Made by a program: the position numbers and the translations under genes. Under the pieces are notes generated by a model that did not search any database, was not told the origin of the DNA, and saw nothing but the letters and a program-made list of their open reading frames with translations. DNA of 32,258 bases from NCBI GenBank assembly GCA_003557645.1, contig PWNV01000004.1:1-32258 (forward strand). The letters are read 5' to 3'. Each line of letters opens with the position of its first letter. Position 1 is the first letter of the stretch. The DNA comes from Candidatus Nealsoniibacteriota bacterium (GTDB lineage: Bacteria; Patescibacteriota; Minisyncoccia; Minisyncoccales; PWPS01). Of this stretch, positions 1,050 through 32,258 are shown one piece after another.

Positions 1050-1075
1050 CCGCCCCTAGAAAAGGGGCGGTTTTT
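1050..1075 (+). terminator. Rho-independent terminator, probably bidirectional
   Basis: CCGCCCC (1050-1056) pairs with GGGGCGG (1064-1070) around a 7-nt loop, followed by TTTTT (1071-1075). It ends the DUF5320-DUF134 unit. The convergent PKD gene stops at 1074, so the same stem can terminate it on the minus strand, where an A/T-rich tract follows. Confidence 0.92.
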
Positions 1076-2102
1076 AAAAGGGATCTACCTCTCTCCAGTC
1101 ATCGGGAAGTGGTGGCCTTACCGTAATAATCTCCGTATCAGTACAGCTTAACCCGTCTTTTGTAACGGTTAAAGTTACTTCTTTTGGCCCTTCTATCTCA
1201 AAAACTACACTCAGGCTCGCTTCCGAGCTTTCTTCCGGATCTCCTCCTTCAAACGTCCAGCTTCTAGTATCAAAATCGCCTCCACTATCAGAGAAGATAA
1301 CTTCTTTATCTACAATCGGCTTAGAAGGCTCCCAAGTAAAGCTTGAATCCGGGTACTCGGGGAGCGTTTCAAACGTAGTGCTTACCCAGTCCGACCATAA
1401 TCCATGGTCATTTCTTGACCTTATCTCCCAAACATAACTACTACTGTAATCAAGATTAGTGTAAACATACCCTCCTTCAGAACTGGTAGTAAACTCATCG
1501 GCATTTATCTTCATCTCAGATCTACTATATCCTCCTCCAAAATCTTCGTAATCCCAGTTAAGCGTTACTTGCGGAGTGATCTCACAGTAGTCCGGTGGGT
1601 GAGACACGTCTAAATTCGAGACCACCGGTTTTGGATATGGATAATATCCAGCCATATCCCAACTCATCCATCCTAAAAATCCATCTCCAAAAGAATATCC
1701 AGAGAGAGATCCTTCGTCATACAAAATTCCGTAACCCTCCCCGCTAAGAGATATCCACTCCTCAGGATCTAGTACTTTTGCCCATCCGGTTATCTCTCCT
1801 TCCTCCATGTCAAATCTCGGTACACACGGCACCTCAGGACAACCTCCTACATCAGTAAAACTAATCCACCCAAGAGCATCAGACCAAGCTTTTCCACTTA
1901 TATACCCCTCATCATCAATCTCAACTCCGTAGTTAGAGCCACAAAAACTAATCCACCCTACATTATCGGACCAAGCAAAACCAAAGATACTGTCTTCCGA
2001 GCAGTCCGTGTTAACACTACCCACTCTGTTAAAACTAAAAAGAAAAATCCCCATAAAGATTAAAAAAGAGAGGATTAAGATTTCAGTTTTTTTCAAAAAC
2101 AT
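1074..2102 (-). CDS. Secreted/anchored surface protein with GWISF repeats, Fn3-like and PKD domains
   Basis: A 342-residue protein starting at ATG 2102. An in-frame ATG at 2141 is possible, but it would overlap the upstream gene and lies before the likely promoter (2110-2137). Residues about 7-25 are a hydrophobic signal or anchor. Then come four W-rich repeats: GFAWSDNVGWISF (41-53), GKAWSDALGWISF (70-82), a WISL copy (106-119) and GWMSW (to 148). A fibronectin-III-like region spans about 159-250, and a PKD domain about 255-328 (SFTWEPSKP, then WTFEGGDPEES, then EVTLTVT). The tail is VRPPLPDDWREVDPF. GWISF repeats with PKD domains are common in Parcubacteria surface proteins of unknown role. 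The partial gene at 32137-32258 has almost the same tail, so these are paralogs. No LPXTG motif or lipobox is visible. Confidence 0.82.
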   Translation of the reverse strand: MFLKKTEILILSFLIFMGIFLFSFNRVGSVNTDCSEDSIFGFAWSDNVGWISFCGSNYGVEIDDEGYISGKAWSDALGWISFTDVGGCPEVPCVPRFDMEEGEITGWAKVLDPEEWISLSGEGYGILYDEGSLSGYSFGDGFLGWMSWDMAGYYPYPKPVVSNLDVSHPPDYCEITPQVTLNWDYEDFGGGYSRSEMKINADEFTTSSEGGYVYTNLDYSSSYVWEIRSRNDHGLWSDWVSTTFETLPEYPDSSFTWEPSKPIVDKEVIFSDSGGDFDTRSWTFEGGDPEESSEASLSVVFEIEGPKEVTLTVTKDGLSCTDTEIITVRPPLPDDWREVDPF

Positions 2103-2109
2103 ATTTTTA

Positions 2110-2137
2110 TTTATAACTCCTCTTCCAGCTCCATCAA
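2110..2137 (-). promoter_or_regulatory. Putative promoter of the PKD protein gene
   Basis: On the minus strand TTGATG (2137-2132), a 16-nt spacer and TATAAA (2115-2110). The predicted start of transcription (about 2103) falls next to the ATG at 2102, so the mRNA would be leaderless. It overlaps the 3' end of the upstream small gene. Confidence 0.5.
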
Positions 2138-2368
2138 ACAATCGATATTTATGAGCTGTACTTCTCCTTCGTCAGAGTAAATAAAGAAAGGCTCACAGTC
2201 TTCTTTAGCGTGCAGGATTATCTCGTTTACCGCTTGAGCATACCCTTGAACCCAGAAACTATTTAAAACTCTTGTTGAGATATCCCAGATTACGTAACTG
2301 GCAAGTAAAACGACAACAACAATTAACAGCGTGTTCTTTTGAAATATCTTCTTAAAATTACCAGACAT
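2111..2368 (-). CDS. Small single-pass membrane protein with paired cysteines, unknown function
   Basis: An 85-residue protein starting MSGNFKK at 2368. A start seven codons further upstream (2389) is rejected because the promoter -10 box (2375-2380) would then lie inside the gene. Residues about 13-31 are a hydrophobic helix; the remaining 54 residues (FWVQGYAQAVNEII, then CEPFFIYSDEGEVQLINIDCLMELEEEL) would be extracytoplasmic. The layout TM, then G-x-x-x-A, then C-x-P-F and V-x-LINIDCL looks like a recurrent small protein of CPR genomes, but I cannot name the family. The two cysteines could form a disulfide outside the membrane. It lies 8 nt upstream of the PKD gene. Confidence 0.7.
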   Translation of the reverse strand: MSGNFKKIFQKNTLLIVVVVLLASYVIWDISTRVLNSFWVQGYAQAVNEIILHAKEDCEPFFIYSDEGEVQLINIDCLMELEEEL

Positions 2369-7911: not shown

Positions 7912-9876
7912 ATGTACAATAATCTAAAGGAACTCTGGCCAAAAGAATGGCCGTCTAGAGGAAAGTGGAAATACTTGCCTCGAGTACTAAACAAGAAAGA
8001 AAAAATCATCTTTTCCGGGATGTGTCTTGTTTTTTTGATTTCCGGATTTTTCCTTCTTCTCGGAACTTACTACTCGCAAACAGAGGTCGTCCCTGGGCCC
8101 GGAGGAATTTATCGTGAAGGTTTTGTTAAATCAAGTCGCTGGCTTACTATTAATCCTCTTTACGCTTCACACAGCGACGCAGAAAGAGATATTATTGAGG
8201 TAGGCTTTGATGAATTGATGCGCTATGAAGATGGAGAGCTTGTTCCTCGGCTTGCAGAAAGCTACGAGGTCACAGACAACCGTATCTTTGAAATAGAGCT
8301 TCGTGATGATATTTACTGGTCAAACGGAGAAAAAATTACTTCTCAAGATGTTCTATTTACCGTAGGAGCCATTCAAAACCCCGCTTTCCAAAGCACTTTA
8401 AGACAACAATGGACAGGAGTGAAAACAGAAAAACTGTCCGAAAGAAAAGTACGTTTTACGCTTGACAGTCCTTCCGCCGTTTTCGCACAAAATCTCACAT
8501 TAAAAATCATTCCCGAGCACATCTTTAAAGATACCACTCCTCAAAATCTTCGTTACGATATTCATAATATGCAGTTTGTCGGCTCCGGCCCTTATCGCTA
8601 CAAGGACTTTGAGGAAGATGAAGAAAGAATTAAGTCTATCACTTTGGAGCGTAATCCTTACTATGTTTTTTCTGATCCTTTTATAAATGAAGTTGTTTTC
8701 CTTTTTTACGAAAGCGAGAGTGACCTTTTAGAAGCACAAAGAAAAGGAGAGATTGATGGATTTACGCCATCACGAAGCATGCAGGATTACCAAACCTCAC
8801 TATCAACTTATGAGTTTTTCCTTCCCCGATACTTCTCCGTTATTTTTAATCTGGAGCAAGAAAGTGTCTTAGAAGATCACAACATCAGAAAGGCTTTAAA
8901 CTACGCCACAGATAAAGAAGAGATTCTTCGCAAAGTTCTTAATAATAAAGGAACTGTTGTCGACTCTCCAATTCTTCCATCTTTTTACGGAATAACACCA
9001 CCAGAAAAAAGGTATGACTATAATCCCGAAAAAGCAAAGGAGTTAATAAGCAGTGCTGGGTTTGTAGACGGAATAAAAGTAGATGAAGATCCTTTCCGTT
9101 TTACAGAAGACCTGAAAGAGGGATCACAAGGAGAAGAGGTAAGAAACTTGCAAAGATGTTTTATTAGTATAGAAGAAGATTTTTACCCTGAAGGAGAGGT
9201 CACCGGATTCTTCGGATCAGAAACAAAAGAAGCTGTAAATCGCTTTCAAGAGTTCTATTTTGAAGATATTCTTGCTCCACACGGATTTACCAAAGGAACG
9301 GGTATGGTTGCGGGAAGCACAAGAGAAAAATTAAACGAACTTTGCGCTGACATCTTTAAGGGGGCGATCCCGCTAGAAATCTCAGTTACTACCATTAATG
9401 ATCCAACCCTTGTTGAGCTTACAGAAGTCCTTAAAGAGCAGTGGGAAAAAGTAGGGATTAATTTGATTGTAAAAGCAAAAGATGTGCAAAGATTTACAAC
9501 AGAAACGATTCCATCTAGGGATTACGAGTCTCTTCTTCTTGGAACAACACTTACCGCAATCCCCAACCCTCTCCCCTTGTGGCACTCTACGAAAAGAGAA
9601 GAGCCGGGAATAAATCTCTCTGGATACGAAAACGAAACGGTAGACGAGCTTACTGAGATTATAATTAAGAAAACCGGAGAAGAGCGAGAAGAAGCGCTTT
9701 TACAATTGCAAGAGTTAATTCTAGAAGACGCACCAGGAATATTTCTTTACAATCCTTCTTTTTCCTACTACGTTTCTCCAAGAATAAAGGGAATTGAGGA
9801 GGGAAAACTTATTGACGCATCAAAAAGACTAAAAAACATTGACAAGTGGTATATAGCCACTCGAAGGACGTTTTAA
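7912..9876 (+). CDS. Peptide-type ABC substrate-binding protein (SBP_bac_5) with an inserted peptidoglycan-binding-like module
   Basis: A 654-residue extracytoplasmic solute-binding protein of the oligopeptide/nickel class. A cytoplasmic stub is followed by one TM helix (about 33-51) that anchors it; there is no lipobox cysteine. Family 5 motifs follow: LYASHSDAERDIIEVGFDEL, LAESYEV, DDIYWSNGEKITSQDVLFT (about 130-150), SGPYRYKDFE and IRKALNYATDKEEIL (about 325-340). At about residues 398-478 (nt 9105-9345) is an insertion, DLKEGSQGEEVRNLQRCF through VTGFFGSETKEAVNRFQE to STREKLNELC, which fits a PG_binding_1 domain. The SBP fold resumes at PLEISVTTINDPTLVELTEVL. No permease or ATPase genes lie beside it. 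Wall tethering is an inference from the insertion. Confidence 0.85.
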   Translation: MYNNLKELWPKEWPSRGKWKYLPRVLNKKEKIIFSGMCLVFLISGFFLLLGTYYSQTEVVPGPGGIYREGFVKSSRWLTINPLYASHSDAERDIIEVGFDELMRYEDGELVPRLAESYEVTDNRIFEIELRDDIYWSNGEKITSQDVLFTVGAIQNPAFQSTLRQQWTGVKTEKLSERKVRFTLDSPSAVFAQNLTLKIIPEHIFKDTTPQNLRYDIHNMQFVGSGPYRYKDFEEDEERIKSITLERNPYYVFSDPFINEVVFLFYESESDLLEAQRKGEIDGFTPSRSMQDYQTSLSTYEFFLPRYFSVIFNLEQESVLEDHNIRKALNYATDKEEILRKVLNNKGTVVDSPILPSFYGITPPEKRYDYNPEKAKELISSAGFVDGIKVDEDPFRFTEDLKEGSQGEEVRNLQRCFISIEEDFYPEGEVTGFFGSETKEAVNRFQEFYFEDILAPHGFTKGTGMVAGSTREKLNELCADIFKGAIPLEISVTTINDPTLVELTEVLKEQWEKVGINLIVKAKDVQRFTTETIPSRDYESLLLGTTLTAIPNPLPLWHSTKREEPGINLSGYENETVDELTEIIIKKTGEEREEALLQLQELILEDAPGIFLYNPSFSYYVSPRIKGIEEGKLIDASKRLKNIDKWYIATRRTF

Positions 9877-27264: not shown

Positions 27265-29329
27265 TGATAAGATTCAAAAACTCTGCTTCGTTAATAATAT
27301 TTCTTTTTAAGGCTTTCGCCTCCTTAAGCTTGGACCCCGGATTATCTCCTACTACTAGATAGTTTGTGTTGCGAGAAACTGATGATGAAACTTTCCCTCC
27401 TAAATGAGAAATTTTTTGTTTCGCCTCTTCTCTTGTCATCTTCTCAAGACTACCAGTAATAACAAAAACTTTCCCATCAAACTTTTTTTGTGTTTTTTCT
27501 TTCTTTATTACTACTCCCACATCTTTTAACTTTTTAATGAGGTCTCTATTTTTTTCATCTTGGAAAAATTTAAAAATCTGTTTTGCAGTTTTTGGACCTA
27601 CATCAGGAACATTTTCCAGTTCTTCTAAAGAGGCACTTTCTACTTTTTCTAGGCTACCAAAAGCTCTTGCTATATCACGCGCAACACCCTCTCCCACATA
27701 AGAGATTGAAAGTGCTTGCAGAAACCGAGAAAGAGAGATGTGTTTGCTGTTTTGAATAGACGCAACCAATTTCTTGGAAGATAGTTCCGCGAAACGCTCT
27801 AGATGAGTTAAATCTCCTTCGTGAAGCATAAAGAGATCAGCCGGATCAGAGATGATTCCTTCCATTAACAGCTGATCAATAACTTTTTCTCCTAATCCAT
27901 CAATATCAAACCCTTTTTTGGAAACAAAATAACTAAGTTGTTGCCTTCTCTTTCCTTGACAGTTTTTATTAATACAGTACCATCTCGCCTCATCTTTCGG
28001 TCGCAAGACCTCTCCCTCACAAAGCGGACACTTTTTGGGGAAAACAATTTTCTTTTCTTCTCCCTTGCGAAACTCTTTTAATACTTTCACAACACGAGGA
28101 ATAACATCTCCCGCCCTTCCAACTATCACCGTATCTTTTTTCTTTACGCCCAAACGCTTGATCTCATCTTCGTTGTGCAGTGTAGCACGAGATACGGTTA
28201 CTCCTCCAAGAGAAATCGGTTCAAGTAAAGCCACCGGAGTAATCGCTCCCGTTCTTCCTATTTGAAAATGCACGTCGTTTATTGTTGTTGCTCTTTCCTC
28301 TAGTGGAAATTTGTAAGCAATCCCACCACGAGGAGACTTTCCAGCAACTCCCAATACTTCAAACAACTCGTTGTCATTTACAAACACAGCCACTCCGTCA
28401 ATTTGATAAGTGTACCTTTCTCTTTCCTTTTCCGTTTTTCTGTAAAAATGAAAAACCTCAGAGAGATCTCGACAGTACTTTTCACGATCCACTGTTTTAA
28501 ATCCAAGAGCACGTAGGAGAAGATGCTTTTCTTGGTGCGTTTTGGCTCCAAAGGGAGTCACCATTTCTTTTTCTTCTTTGTCCGCTACTAGGTTATAAGC
28601 AAGAAAACCAAGATTGCGGCTTGCAGCAATCTTTGGATCAAGCTGTCTTATTGATCCAGCGGCAATATTCCTTGGATTGGCGTAGAGAGGAAGTCCCATT
28701 TTTTCTCTTTCTTTGTTCTGTTTTAAAAACTCTTTTTTGGAAATAAAAACTTCCCCGTGAACAACAATACTTTTCCCGTCTTTTCTCCATCCAAAGCTCT
28801 GAGAAATTTTCTTTTCTTCTTTAGAAAAACTGCTTGGAGATCGAAGTCGTAAAGGAACTGCTTCTATGGTCTTCAAGTTTTGCGTTACATCCTCGCCAAT
28901 TTTTCCATCACCTCTTGTAGAGCCACTAACTAAAACATCATCTTCATAAACAAGCTCTACCGCTAAACCATCCACTTTAAGTTCACAAAAGTAATCTATC
29001 TTAACTTCGGGAGGAAGGAGACGTTTTATTCTTTTTTCAAAATTACACATATCCTCCTTACTAAAAGCATCTTGGAAAGAGAACATCTCTCTGTAGTGCT
29101 CTACTTTTTCAAACTCATCAAGCGTCTTTCCTTCCACTCTTTGTGTCGGCGAATCGGGAGTTACAAGATCAGGAAAATCGCTCTCCAAATCAAAAAGCTC
29201 TTTTTTAAGAGAGTCCAGTGCATCGGCGGACACCTCCTCTCTGTCGTGAACATGATAGAGATAGCGATAATGATTAATAACTTTCTTGAGATCTTCTATT
29301 CTTTTTTTTGCCCCCTCTTTATTCTTCAT
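27248..29329 (-). CDS. ligA: NAD-dependent DNA ligase LigA
   Basis: A 693-residue LigA of normal length. The Ia domain with HYRYLYHVHD (20-29) binds NMN; the adenylation lysine is K118 in CELKVDGLAVEL; GSTRGDGKIGEDVT and SPRGGIAYKFP are later nucleotidyltransferase motifs; the OB domain has IGRTGAITPVALLEPISLGG. A zinc finger (CPLCEGEV... WYCINKNC, about 403-425), helix-hairpin-helix repeats (about 500-590) and a C-terminal BRCT domain (about 615-690) follow. MFSFQDAF replaces the more usual MLSLDNAF. It seals nicks using NAD+. It sits between pilin-like genes and rodA, overlapping the upstream gene by 11 bp and rodA by 17 bp, so all are translationally linked. Confidence 0.97.
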   Translation of the reverse strand: MKNKEGAKKRIEDLKKVINHYRYLYHVHDREEVSADALDSLKKELFDLESDFPDLVTPDSPTQRVEGKTLDEFEKVEHYREMFSFQDAFSKEDMCNFEKRIKRLLPPEVKIDYFCELKVDGLAVELVYEDDVLVSGSTRGDGKIGEDVTQNLKTIEAVPLRLRSPSSFSKEEKKISQSFGWRKDGKSIVVHGEVFISKKEFLKQNKEREKMGLPLYANPRNIAAGSIRQLDPKIAASRNLGFLAYNLVADKEEKEMVTPFGAKTHQEKHLLLRALGFKTVDREKYCRDLSEVFHFYRKTEKERERYTYQIDGVAVFVNDNELFEVLGVAGKSPRGGIAYKFPLEERATTINDVHFQIGRTGAITPVALLEPISLGGVTVSRATLHNEDEIKRLGVKKKDTVIVGRAGDVIPRVVKVLKEFRKGEEKKIVFPKKCPLCEGEVLRPKDEARWYCINKNCQGKRRQQLSYFVSKKGFDIDGLGEKVIDQLLMEGIISDPADLFMLHEGDLTHLERFAELSSKKLVASIQNSKHISLSRFLQALSISYVGEGVARDIARAFGSLEKVESASLEELENVPDVGPKTAKQIFKFFQDEKNRDLIKKLKDVGVVIKKEKTQKKFDGKVFVITGSLEKMTREEAKQKISHLGGKVSSSVSRNTNYLVVGDNPGSKLKEAKALKRNIINEAEFLNLINEKNN

Positions 29330-29693
29330 GAGTTCTTCTAACTATCCAGATAGCTCTTCTGGTTCCTCTGTGCAGTCCTACAGATTTAATCTCCGTCTCA
29401 TAGTACCAGTCAATAAGAACCGGTCCTTCCTTTTCATACATATAATAAGTGTCTTCTGCAAGTTCATGTTCTGTGTCCCAATCAAGCTCGTCAAAACTTT
29501 CATCATCCCAAGAATACAGGATCTCTTCTATCCCTGTGTCAGCAGCGTAAAAAGCGGTTACCGATTCTCCGATATCTTCAATCATTCTAAGTTGACTGAT
29601 GAACATGTTCGTAGAGGAAAGTCCAAGAATAAAAAGCACTCCCATTATTATAATAGTAAAGTATAAAGCTGATCCTTTTTGTTTTTTATTCAT
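29319..29693 (-). CDS. PilX-like pilus accessory protein
   Basis: A 124-residue protein starting MNKKQKGSALYFTIIIMGVLFILGLSSTN, a short basic leader with a G-S-A-L junction and one hydrophobic helix (about 9-30), then QLRMIEDIGESVTAFYAADTGIEEILY. The AFYAADTGIE motif is characteristic of PilX/PilX_N-like minor pilins and related proteins, where the TM helix packs into the pseudopilus and the AADxGxE segment follows. The rest (about 60-124) is acidic and rich in Tyr/Trp. It is the last of four pilin-like genes here and overlaps the start of ligA by 11 bp. Whether it is cleaved by the prepilin peptidase is uncertain because the site is less canonical than in its neighbours. Confidence 0.8.
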   Translation of the reverse strand: MNKKQKGSALYFTIIIMGVLFILGLSSTNMFISQLRMIEDIGESVTAFYAADTGIEEILYSWDDESFDELDWDTEHELAEDTYYMYEKEGPVLIDWYYETEIKSVGLHRGTRRAIWIVRRTHEE

Positions 29694-29695
29694 AA

Positions 29696-30277
29696 TTAAG
29701 GGGTTGCAAAATCAATACCTCTTCTTGTAATAGTGGTCTGAATATCAAGCTCAAACCAGTCTTGATCTTCCTCTTTTGCGGTAAAGAGAACTGTTATCGA
29801 CGGTTGTATTTTATTAATATCCTTTTCTGCTTTTCCCTGATCTTCTTCTGGGTCTATAATCGTTCTAATCTGAAAGTTTTCAATAACGATATTAGAGGAT
29901 GTCAAAAATCCTTCCACTGTTTCTTCCCCCTCAATCACTATTTTCACTCTCTCATCTTCCTCAAAAAAACTAATACACCTCCCTTGATAATCGAAGAATT
30001 TCAATACTTCATTTTCTAGATTGTAAGTATAATCCTCGTATCCAATACAACTTCCATCGATGTCTTTTCTTGCCATTCTTGCTAGTCTGCTTATGTACTC
30101 CATCGCATAGTTTATCTCTCCCAGATTTCTTTGTGTAGTGAAAATTCTTTGTTTTACTCGAAGATTGGTAATAAGTGTTCCTGTAAGCATTACGATTATA
30201 AGTGAAAATATAAACATCGACACCAGCACCTCTACTAGCGTTATTCCTTTTTCATTTTGAAATATTTTCTTAGTCAT
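29696..30277 (-). CDS. Prepilin-like protein (PilW/PulJ-type minor pseudopilin)
   Basis: A 193-residue type IV pilin-like protein. The leader MTKKIFQNEKG is followed by ITLVEVLVSMFIFSLIIVMLTGTLI: cleavage after G11 would leave Glu at mature position 5, the type III signal recognised by prepilin peptidase. The C-terminal domain (about 45-193) contains C62 and C84 (SCIGYEDYTYNL and GRCISFF), which could form a disulfide, and ends in DWFELDIQTTITRRGIDFATP. Similar proteins act as minor pilins initiating assembly. It overlaps the upstream gene by 8 bp and lies 2 nt from the PilX-like gene. Confidence 0.87.
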   Translation of the reverse strand: MTKKIFQNEKGITLVEVLVSMFIFSLIIVMLTGTLITNLRVKQRIFTTQRNLGEINYAMEYISRLARMARKDIDGSCIGYEDYTYNLENEVLKFFDYQGRCISFFEEDERVKIVIEGEETVEGFLTSSNIVIENFQIRTIIDPEEDQGKAEKDINKIQPSITVLFTAKEEDQDWFELDIQTTITRRGIDFATP

Positions 30278-30779
30278 ACCATCTGTATAATTTAAGGTAA
30301 GCCTCTCTTCTCTCTTCTTCTCCTCTTTCTTCCCAAAAAACAGTGACCGTTACAAGTAAATAATCTTCTTCTGCGGTTTCTACTCTCTCAACATTTACTT
30401 CTCTTCTAAATCCAGAGTAATCTCCTGCGTCGTCGTGGCTGAAGAGACCGTCTCCATCAACGTAAAGCCTAAAAAAGTTAGCTCCTAAACCACCTTCAAT
30501 TTCTTCAGAGTTGTAATCAATTCTTCCTGTTCCCTCCATCTCGTCTACTATATCTTCCCACCCCTTCCCTTGAAGCCATCCCGAATCCCTAACTCTTCTA
30601 ACAGATTCAACCCCCTCTTGTGTTAGGTAAGAAGCTGTTAACTTATCAGCTAAAGGCATCGTAGATGTAAAAGCACTGGTAATCATGGCAACAGAAGCCA
30701 CCACTCCCGTGGAGATCACGCCAATAACAACTAAAAGCTCGATAAAAGTAAGTCCTTTTTGTAGTTTTTTTAATCTCAT
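30270..30779 (-). CDS. Prepilin-like protein (PilV-type minor pseudopilin)
   Basis: A 169-residue pilin-like protein. The leader MRLKKLQKG ends at G9; FIELLVVIGVISTGVVASVAMIT follows after LT, with Glu13 at the usual position relative to the cleavage site (GLTFIE). The mature domain carries SYLTQEGVESVRRVRDSGWLQG, a region common in PilV/GspI-like proteins of CPR, then a Gly/Asp-rich part (about 100-120) and a strand-rich end (VNVERVETAEEDYLLVTVTVFWEERG). Overlaps with both flanking genes (4 bp upstream, 8 bp downstream) indicate translation as one set. Confidence 0.87.
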   Translation of the reverse strand: MRLKKLQKGLTFIELLVVIGVISTGVVASVAMITSAFTSTMPLADKLTASYLTQEGVESVRRVRDSGWLQGKGWEDIVDEMEGTGRIDYNSEEIEGGLGANFFRLYVDGDGLFSHDDAGDYSGFRREVNVERVETAEEDYLLVTVTVFWEERGEEERREAYLKLYRWYD

Positions 30780-31315
30780 AGATGCTTAATGCTTACAAGG
30801 CCGACACTATTAACAATGATAATCATCTTAGGATCGTTTTCATAAGCATACCCTATCTCTATCTCAACTTCATCTACTTCTTCTTCGCTAAAGCGCACCG
30901 TCGGATCAGGAGGAGAAAAAGTAACCTCTAACGGATCTTCTGGTGAGAACACAACAACTTCTCTCTCCAGTTCTTTTTTTCTAATTATAACTCTTCTTAT
31001 CTCCTCATCTCCGCCACCAGTTGGAACTATTCGAGTTTCTGCAAACAATTCATAATTATCACTCTCAAACCTTATTCCGTATCTTCTCCCAGGAACAAAG
31101 TCATACAAATTCTCATCTATCTCAAAATCAACCTCTTTAGCAGAGATTGACATACCTCTTACTCTTTCTATCTCTTTTGCTATATTATTTACTTCTTCTT
31201 CCAAGAAAATATTTCTATTAAAAATCCCATAACCAGGAAAAACAAGCACCGAAACAATTGCTATTATCCCTATAGCTACCATTAACTCTATAATACTAAA
31301 TCCTTTTGTGCTCAT
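30776..31315 (-). CDS. Prepilin-like protein (GspH/FimT-type pseudopilin)
   Basis: A 179-residue protein beginning MSTKGFSIIELMVAIGIIAIVSVLVFPGYG: cleavage after G5 leaves F1 and E5, a canonical type IV pilin signal. The helix runs to about residue 55 (NNIAKEIERVRGMSISAKE), then a GspH-like beta domain with YGIRFESDNYELFAETRIVP and IIIVNSVGLVSIKH at the end; no cysteines are visible, so there is no classic C-terminal disulfide loop. It overlaps the prepilin peptidase gene by 4 bp, immediately downstream of the enzyme that would process it. Confidence 0.88.
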   Translation of the reverse strand: MSTKGFSIIELMVAIGIIAIVSVLVFPGYGIFNRNIFLEEEVNNIAKEIERVRGMSISAKEVDFEIDENLYDFVPGRRYGIRFESDNYELFAETRIVPTGGGDEEIRRVIIRKKELEREVVVFSPEDPLEVTFSPPDPTVRFSEEEVDEVEIEIGYAYENDPKMIIIVNSVGLVSIKHL

Positions 31316-32082
31316 ATAATAAAACTAAAATACCAATCTACTAAAAAATCTCCAAAAAAATAGGAAAGAATTGTACCGGTAATAAGAAAGGGTCCAAAAG
31401 GTATCTCACTTTTCATTCCCTTTTTTTTCAGTGTTAATAAGATTAATCCTATTATAGCACCAAGAGAAAAAGAAAGAAAAAGGCCAACGATGATTTCAGG
31501 AAATCCAAGGAAAAGACCCATGAAAATAACATATTTAACATCACCAAACCCCATCCCTTTTCCTTTAGAGAGATAGAAAATAAGAAAAAAGAATACAAAC
31601 GCTCCCAGAGCGGAAAAAACAGGATAAAGAAGATTATTTACATCTCCTTCTGTGAAAAAATGGAAAAAGCGATAAAGGAGAGCTATTCCTATAAGAGAGA
31701 AAACGGCAAAATCAGGAATAATATAATACTTTAAATCATAGACAAAAACAAAGGAAAGCAAAGACAGAACAAAAAACAAATAGAAAAGTGTAGCAAGAGA
31801 AAGTGCAGGAACGATAAATAAATAAGAAGACAGAAAAACCAACCCAACAGCAAGCTCTACCAGAGGATACTGTACTGATATTTTTTCTTTACAATACCGG
31901 CATCTTCCAAATAAAAAAACCCAACTTAAAAGAGGAACCAGGTCCTTGGCAAAAAGACTGTGCCTACAGTGAGGACAAAAAGATGTGCCTCTCATGCTTT
32001 GCTCGGTATAAACGCGATAAACGGCACAATTAATAAATGAACCGATGGCAAGTCCTAGTAAAAAAACAAATAGAAAATCCAT
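31312..32082 (-). CDS. pilD: Prepilin peptidase / N-methyltransferase (A24)
   Basis: A 256-residue bifunctional inner-membrane enzyme that cleaves prepilin leaders and methylates the new N-terminus. It starts MDFLFVFLLGLAIGSFINCAVYR at ATG 32082; an ATG eight codons earlier (32106) lies in the terminator stem of the upstream gene. The cytoplasmic zinc motif is CPHCRHSL...CRYC (about residues 36-64), linked to the methyltransferase part. The catalytic aspartates lie in VYDLKYYIIPD (about 116-126) and GMGFGDVK (about 175-182). Eight or so TM helices span the protein. It heads an operon with four pilin-like genes, ligA and rodA, which suggests an active type IV pilus or pseudopilus. Confidence 0.94.
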   Translation of the reverse strand: MDFLFVFLLGLAIGSFINCAVYRVYTEQSMRGTSFCPHCRHSLFAKDLVPLLSWVFLFGRCRYCKEKISVQYPLVELAVGLVFLSSYLFIVPALSLATLFYLFFVLSLLSFVFVYDLKYYIIPDFAVFSLIGIALLYRFFHFFTEGDVNNLLYPVFSALGAFVFFFLIFYLSKGKGMGFGDVKYVIFMGLFLGFPEIIVGLFLSFSLGAIIGLILLTLKKKGMKSEIPFGPFLITGTILSYFFGDFLVDWYFSFII

Positions 32083-32088
32083 ATCACA

Positions 32089-32117
32089 AGAATAACAAAA
32101 AAACACTGCCTCTTCAA
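32089..32117 (-). promoter_or_regulatory. Promoter of the prepilin peptidase operon, overlapping a terminator
   Basis: Minus-strand TTGAAG (32117-32112), a 17-nt spacer ending in TGT, and TATTCT (32094-32089), an extended -10. The predicted start is 32082, exactly the A of the ATG (leaderless). The -35 lies in the loop and arm of the terminator of the upstream PKD gene. Confidence 0.55.
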
Positions 32118-32136: not shown

Positions 32137-32258
32137 TTAGAAAGGATCCACTTCTCTCCAGTCATCGGGAGGTGGTGGACGAACGCTAACTGTCTGTGTG
32201 TTTTCGCAGGATTCAGTTGCACTTGAAACCTCCAGTGTCACTTCTTTGTCTCCTTCTC
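32137..32258 (-). CDS. C-terminal end of a PKD surface protein, paralog of the gene at 1074-2102 (5' end outside window)
   Basis: The minus-strand frame from the right edge to TAA (32139-32137) encodes 39 residues: EGDKEVTLEVSSATESC, then ENTQTVSVRPPPPDDWREVDPF. The first part matches the last strands of a PKD domain, and the tail matches the left-edge PKD protein (EGPKEVTLTVTKDGLSC ... VRPPLPDDWREVDPF). The two genes are about 30 kb apart in this window, on the same strand. It is followed by its own terminator and then the prepilin peptidase operon. The N-terminal architecture is unknown because the gene runs off the window. Confidence 0.88.
   Translation of the reverse strand, partial: EGDKEVTLEVSSATESCENTQTVSVRPPPPDDWREVDPF

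Follow-up and report, generated by a model that had tools for sequence, protein, structure and literature searches.

A short C-terminal tail ends a group of secreted proteins in ultra-small Parcubacteria, and its genes are linked to the minor-pilin operon of type IV pili. We describe this tail from a 32,258-nucleotide window of Candidatus Nealsoniibacteriota DNA, which is an entire contig (C11) of a Patescibacteria-type genome (G000, 596 kb in 22 contigs, 98% complete). Two window genes, one near each end, share the ending VRPP[LP]PDDWREVDPF, and similar endings follow a PKD domain in secreted proteins across the order and the class. The tail lies outside the predicted fold of the protein, and the tail proteins carry a secretion signal and no other visible anchor. 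We are somewhat inclined to read the tail genes of the window as encoding secreted type IV pilus tip adhesins, which would be counterparts of PilY1 without being homologous to it and would be docked on minor pilins by their tails.

The left gene (1074-2141, minus strand) is listed from a TTG start, although translation more likely begins at the ATG of residue 14 (2100-2102). Its tail, VRPPLPDDWREVDPF, is encoded at 1077-1121, with the core PDDWREVDPF at 1077-1106. The right-edge gene (32137-32258, minus strand) is truncated by the contig end and terminates in VRPPPPDDWREVDPF (32140-32184). A third copy of the tail in the same genome is located at the start of contig C10 (C10:1-516; locus L002 1-519). 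The sequence-only reading had claimed that the two window genes share a conserved tail and that this tail is more conserved than the preceding domain, and both claims hold. The left and right-edge proteins are identical at 14 of 15 tail residues, compared with 11 of the 24 residues just before. Between the left protein and the C10 copy, the identities are 14/15 in the tail and 52/139 elsewhere (Fisher p = 3e-5), and against a genome of the same genus (G001) they are 14/15 and 54/197 (p = 5e-7). The left and right-edge tails show several synonymous differences and a single amino-acid difference, suggesting selection on the peptide instead of recent DNA copying, and this points to a protein-level constraint that keeps the two tails similar. 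In a set of 85 sequences, the motif columns contain 3.3 bits and the PKD columns 1.7 bits, an approximately twofold difference that should be taken with caution, as that set was selected on three motif residues (P, E, and P).

The right-edge gene and the C10 copy are nearly identical over the final ~100 nt, and the sequence just upstream is different. They appear to be recent duplicates, or products of gene conversion, over this segment, and the near-identity is likely the reason why both contigs break there. Taken alone, this pair proves nothing about constraint on the tail. It is also what would favor recent duplication as the sole source of the shared tail, an explanation to which we give almost no chance. 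The motif is found in dozens of families whose PKD regions have diverged to ~25-40% identity, and its range, which covers the order and the class instead of two recent duplicates, refutes duplication as the entire explanation.

This range was assessed with several patterns and profiles. In the 196 genomes of the order, the DNA pattern W-x-E-[VI]-x-P-F-stop matched 50 times, in 43 genomes, with one or more of the matches spurious, compared with ~5 matches for the reversed control. Across the rest of the phylum, this strict F-stop pattern gave chance-level matches only. A GTDB-wide scan with a stricter pattern found tail-ending secreted proteins in Staskawicz-, Wildermuth-, Portnoy-, Nealson-, and Yanofskybacteria and in unnamed Patescibacteria. 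The single exception was a contig labelled Kiritimatiellae (L176), whose protein is similar to a Patescibacteria protein, and the contig is probably misbinned. The form P-x-W-[KR]-E-[IV]-x-P-F is the ending of secreted PKD proteins throughout the order, and a profile combining PKD domain and tail detected the module in 154 of the 196 genomes. The same profile, which is the sole means by which the class-wide form was detected, found the module in 74 of 188 genomes sampled from the class (Paceibacteria/Parcubacteria). Elsewhere in the class, the core P-x-W-[KR]-E-[IV]-x-P is kept, and the final F is replaced by W, R, K, or nothing. When the fetched loci were searched with a PKD-only profile, the motif followed the PKD domain in 89 of 96 proteins (in 77 it lay no more than 3 residues from the end, and in 12 the extension was longer), a fraction inflated by the many loci fetched via the tail. 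The tail is likewise present on nearly all PKD proteins at loci for which the query was the whole protein or PilW alone. In the window protein and its relatives, the tail falls outside every Pfam and NCBIfam model, and we found no description of the tail in the literature, most subscription journals being outside the coverage of the search.

Several variants of the tail were seen. In loci L013, L014, L083, L257, L262, L263, L265, L268, and L271, an amphipathic or hydrophobic continuation of 17-34 residues follows the motif, for example PTTWFKNLFAEIVNLFDGFLKI, and such extensions are possibly a second attachment mode. Downstream of the minor-pilin cluster in L047/L207, a secreted 190-residue glycine-rich protein ends with PPATNWREILPF and contains no recognisable PKD domain, so that the tail seems to be on a different carrier. 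The "extended tails" upstream of pilB in L194, L218, and L222 were rejected as chance matches within a small pilus protein.

In the AlphaFold2 model of the left protein (mean pLDDT 84), a signal helix (residues 18-38) precedes an all-beta head made up of WISF repeats, which is followed by an Ig/FN3-like domain and then by a PKD domain. The N-terminal signal segment comprises residues 14-44 (2010-2102, minus strand, as for the other domains) and is present in 64 of 65 complete relatives. The head, with beta repeats of the WAWS..GWISF type (1647-2006), is defined by sequence, alignment, and the model, and the Ig/FN3-like domain (1362-1634) by the model and a PDB fold search, which returned only generic Ig/FN3/PKD folds for the tail protein. 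The PKD domain (1116-1349), immediately N-terminal to the tail, matches Pfam PKD_4 with an E value of 8.6e-5. Its PKD (PF18911) score of 23 bits is below the gathering cut-off of 27, which is exceeded by the relatives L158, L161, and L185. The last PKD strand ends at residue 342, and the tail residues 343-355 are modelled with no secondary structure. The pLDDT is 94-98 within the PKD domain and drops to 64 at the end of the tail. Because the invariant residues sit in an unfolded extension, the mark of a linear binding motif, the model suggests that the tail is such a motif. Another explanation is that the conserved residues form a structural cap, packing on the PKD domain and stabilizing it with no partner involved; the tail does begin where the final PKD strand stops, and tail and domain are nearly always found together. 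The lack of secondary structure, the drop in pLDDT, and the tailed protein of L047/L207 argue against such a cap, which we consider quite improbable.

The right-edge tail gene is located in a type IV pilus minor-pilin operon. The next gene encodes a prepilin peptidase, PilD (31312-32106; Pfam A24_N_bact 1.8e-26, Peptidase_A24 1.9e-15). It is followed by four minor pilins: a FimU/GspH-like one (30776-31315; N_methyl, position, and similarity), a PilV-like one (30270-30779; similarity, with an N-terminal pilin motif just under the N_methyl cut-off), a PilW-like one (29696-30277; N_methyl, similarity, and alignment), and a PilX-like one (29319-29693; Pfam PilX_N 7.1e-6), the proposed dock by analogy. 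All of these genes are on the minus strand. The operon is identified as that of a type IV pilus by the prepilin peptidase, the minor pilins with type III signals, and the PilX_N match. The window, where ligA and rodA are on this strand too, and its genus mate share the gene order TAIL-PilD-FimU-PilV-PilW-PilX-ligA-rodA. A nearly identical order, pilB-pilT-pilC-major pilin-pilD-[tail gene]-fimU-pilV-pilW-pilX-ligA-rodA, recurs among twenty neighbourhoods that were selected through the tail.

The linkage extends beyond the genus. In the order, the best pilW match is at most 15 kb away from 32 of 109 tail-complete matches (~5 expected), and 30 of these 32 are on the same strand. Most of the linked genes are at +1.4 to +3.1 kb from pilW, directly upstream of fimU-pilV-pilW. 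In the other orders of the class, 14 of 46 tail matches are near pilW, all on the same strand (1.7 expected). Combined, 46 of 155 tail genes are within 15 kb of pilW (~7 expected), and 44 of the 46 are on the same strand. PKD matches not reaching the tail were near pilW in 1 of 42 cases (Fisher p = 6e-5); these 42 are weaker matches and may include internal PKD domains. Among 60 loci chosen by PilW alone, 13 have a tail or near-tail gene within the operon or next to it, and in the remaining loci fimU usually comes directly after pilD. These observations suggest that the tail gene is mobile, entering and leaving a single operon mostly at the same site. In L158 (1518-5287), two tandem tail-bearing genes (899 and 364 residues) are directly upstream of fimU-pilV-pilW, so that a single operon would have two candidate tip adhesins. 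Beside tail genes, small proteins recur that combine a signal-like start with a stretch of the FAW.EP...PPG.NV type (L083 7822-9227, L067 6575-7018, and L081 11806-12243).

The same linkage to GspH/I/J/K-like minor pilins would be expected if the tail were a secretion signal, recognised by the pseudopilin tip of a pilus-like machine that expels the protein as in type II secretion. Three T2SSF pilus platform proteins are encoded in this genome (contigs C9, C14, and C17), and there may possibly be more than one pilus-like machine. However, the operon holds a prepilin peptidase, major pilins, PilB, and PilT, which is the make-up of a retractable pilus, and a Sec signal should suffice for release where the cell lacks a true outer membrane. 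We therefore see little probability in a secretion signal.

A simple hydropathy scan found an N-terminal hydrophobic segment in 64 of 65 complete tail proteins and another membrane-like segment in only 6 of the 65, and because of these counts we believe that they are probably secreted with no other visible anchor. The tail proteins have no LPXTG motif and lack the hydrophobic segment and basic end of a sortase substrate, and the window sequences stop at DPF. The suggestion of the sequence-only reading that the tail is neither LPXTG nor a hydrophobic anchor, but a different kind of tag, is thus borne out. Sortase (PF04203) has no match in the source genome, and across the 196 genomes of the order it is unassociated with the tail (43/114 vs 34/82, p = 0.66). 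On these two results, sortase-type anchoring was rejected. One can still imagine a sorting tag at which an unknown sortase- or exosortase-like enzyme cuts and joins the protein to the surface, as a short C-terminal motif is present on many different secreted proteins and the amphipathic extension in some relatives resembles a cut-off peptide. We regard this as improbable, given the sortase results, the lack of a hydrophobic segment with a basic end, and the finding that most proteins have 0-3 residues after the motif and so nothing to cleave off. In addition, no PEP-CTERM, GlyGly-CTERM, or similar NCBIfam signal model matched the window protein or five relatives. Of the sorting, anchoring, or secretion signal proposed at the outset, the C-terminal tag under constraint stands, and "sorting or secretion" is better replaced by a putative pilus-tip docking peptide. 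The co-occurring partner sought for the tail seems to be found in the minor pilins and prepilin peptidase of the type IV pilus and not in a sortase-like processing enzyme.

The heads of the tail proteins are of different types, including WISF repeats, a Kelch propeller with Fib_succ_major (L189), a cadherin-like domain with Big_9 (L181), and a laminin-G lectin, Laminin_G_3 (L162). In L022 (1473-2810) and L024 (496-1833), WISF-repeat heads are followed by a C-terminal peptidoglycan-binding domain in place of the PKD domain and tail (PG_binding_1, E 9.8e-7 in L024 and below the cut-off in L022). This replacement suggests that the tail serves an attachment role. Such a role would also be served by a cell-envelope anchor, with the tail binding a wall polymer, the S-layer, or a membrane protein, and the linkage to pilins reflecting mere clustering of surface genes. 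The lack of another visible anchor, the WISF heads on peptidoglycan-binding proteins, and the location of most tail genes away from pilin genes are consistent with an envelope anchor. On the other hand, the linkage is specific to the minor-pilin operon, same-strand, mostly at one site, and almost exclusive to tailed PKD proteins, and we consider an envelope anchor unlikely, though a serious alternative. A separate window gene (7912-9876, plus strand) encodes an oligopeptide-type solute-binding protein (SBP_bac_5, 9.7e-60) with PG_binding_1 (4.5e-6) inserted near the middle, perhaps a wall-tethered binding protein.

Several observations weigh against the pilus-tip reading. Roughly 70% of tail genes, two of the three in this genome among them, are not close to the pilin operon, and some of the unlinked genes are an assembly effect in fragmented genomes. 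As PilW is found in 182 of the 196 genomes, pili are near-universal and co-occurrence with the tail has low power (odds ratio 3.8, p = 0.025), and this signal could be produced by genome incompleteness. Co-occurrence was therefore dropped as proof of a partnership. The PKD domain and the tail are nearly always together, so docking may instead be by the PKD domain. The motif is not always the C-terminal end, since the 17-34 further residues follow it in about one relative in eight. Finally, the AlphaFold2 model of PilX, built from four sequences, was unusable (pLDDT 50).

With these points considered, we propose the following mechanism for a tip adhesin. The signal peptide would export the tail protein via Sec. 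The variable N-terminal head, which is of the WISF type here and a Kelch propeller, cadherin-like domain, or lectin in relatives, would do the binding, either to the host or to a surface. At the C-terminus, the constant PKD domain would display the [L]P-x-W-[KR]-E-[IV]-x-P-F tail, which may dock on the FimU-PilV-PilW-PilX tip complex, most likely by contributing a strand to PilX or to one of its neighbours, and docking would fix the adhesin at the pilus tip. Where a genome combines one tail with several different heads (this genome has three tail genes), the paralogues would share a single dock or compete for it. We infer the tip location, the adhesin function, the docking on PilX, and the exchange of paralogues. 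Docking is proposed because the tail matches the C-terminal strand of PilY1 in place, in its similar length, and in gene neighbourhood. In Myxococcus, the eight C-terminal residues of PilY1 (LQNVYELP, or SKVLIYAP in the second copy) were modelled as a strand added to PilX that holds the adhesin at the pilus tip (PMC11046646), and docking of a C-terminal strand on PilX is likewise predicted for other PilY1 complexes (PMC13190605). A more general proposal, which we judge to have an even chance of being right, is that P-x-W-[KR]-E-[IV]-x-P acts as a class-wide docking code, plugging interchangeable non-PilY1 secreted adhesins into one minor-pilin tip complex, so that heads could be swapped between genes with the pilus unchanged.

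In host recognition and attachment by Parcubacteria, pili are a main suspect, and these ultra-small cells probably use type IV pili to reach their hosts. In Saccharibacteria TM7x, which belongs to the same phylum, pili contribute to host binding (PMC12206443). If the tail marks candidate tip adhesins, these could be listed from sequence alone and their heads sorted by likely host.

The tail may be compared with several known systems. Like the LPXTG/sortase and PEP-CTERM/exosortase signals, it is a short C-terminal tag common to otherwise different surface proteins, but it has no transmembrane segment or basic end, is at the extreme C-terminus, and shows no link to sortase. For Paceibacteria parasitic on methanogens, passages of a recent report describe secreted PKD proteins as highly expressed and propose a role in host attachment (Kuroda et al. 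2024, PMC10936435). Among them, PMX.108_01191 resembles the tail proteins as a secreted PKD protein from the same class with proposed host attachment, whereas the passages describing it name no tail and no pilus link. The modular minor pilins, namely PilB/PilC of Streptococcus sanguinis and PilX2 of TM7x (PMC12206443), likewise place adhesive domains on pili in the absence of a classical outer membrane. There, a pilin-like subunit carries the adhesive domain as a fusion, whereas the tail proteins are separate and secreted, with a proposed docking tail.

A further comparison is with PilY1/PilC, the tip adhesins of type IVa pili (PF05567). These proteins are also secreted and often present in several copies per genome, with an N-terminal head that varies and a C-terminal part that is constant. 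Their genes are in the minor-pilin operon, as are the right-edge gene and ~30% of tail genes, and docking of the tail is proposed here by analogy with the short C-terminal strand of PilY1 modelled on PilX (PMC11046646, PMC13190605). The two differ in the constant part, which in the tail proteins is a PKD domain with the defined P-x-W-[KR]-E-[IV]-x-P tail and no PilY1 beta-propeller. PF05567, the C-terminal seven-bladed beta-propeller of PilY1, was not found by Pfam in the window protein or its relatives. It also had no match in the 196 genomes of the order, which is no proof of PilY1 absence, as the control genomes had none either. If the proposal is true, the solution known from PilY1, a separate tip adhesin held by a C-terminal strand, exists in a second form made of different domains.
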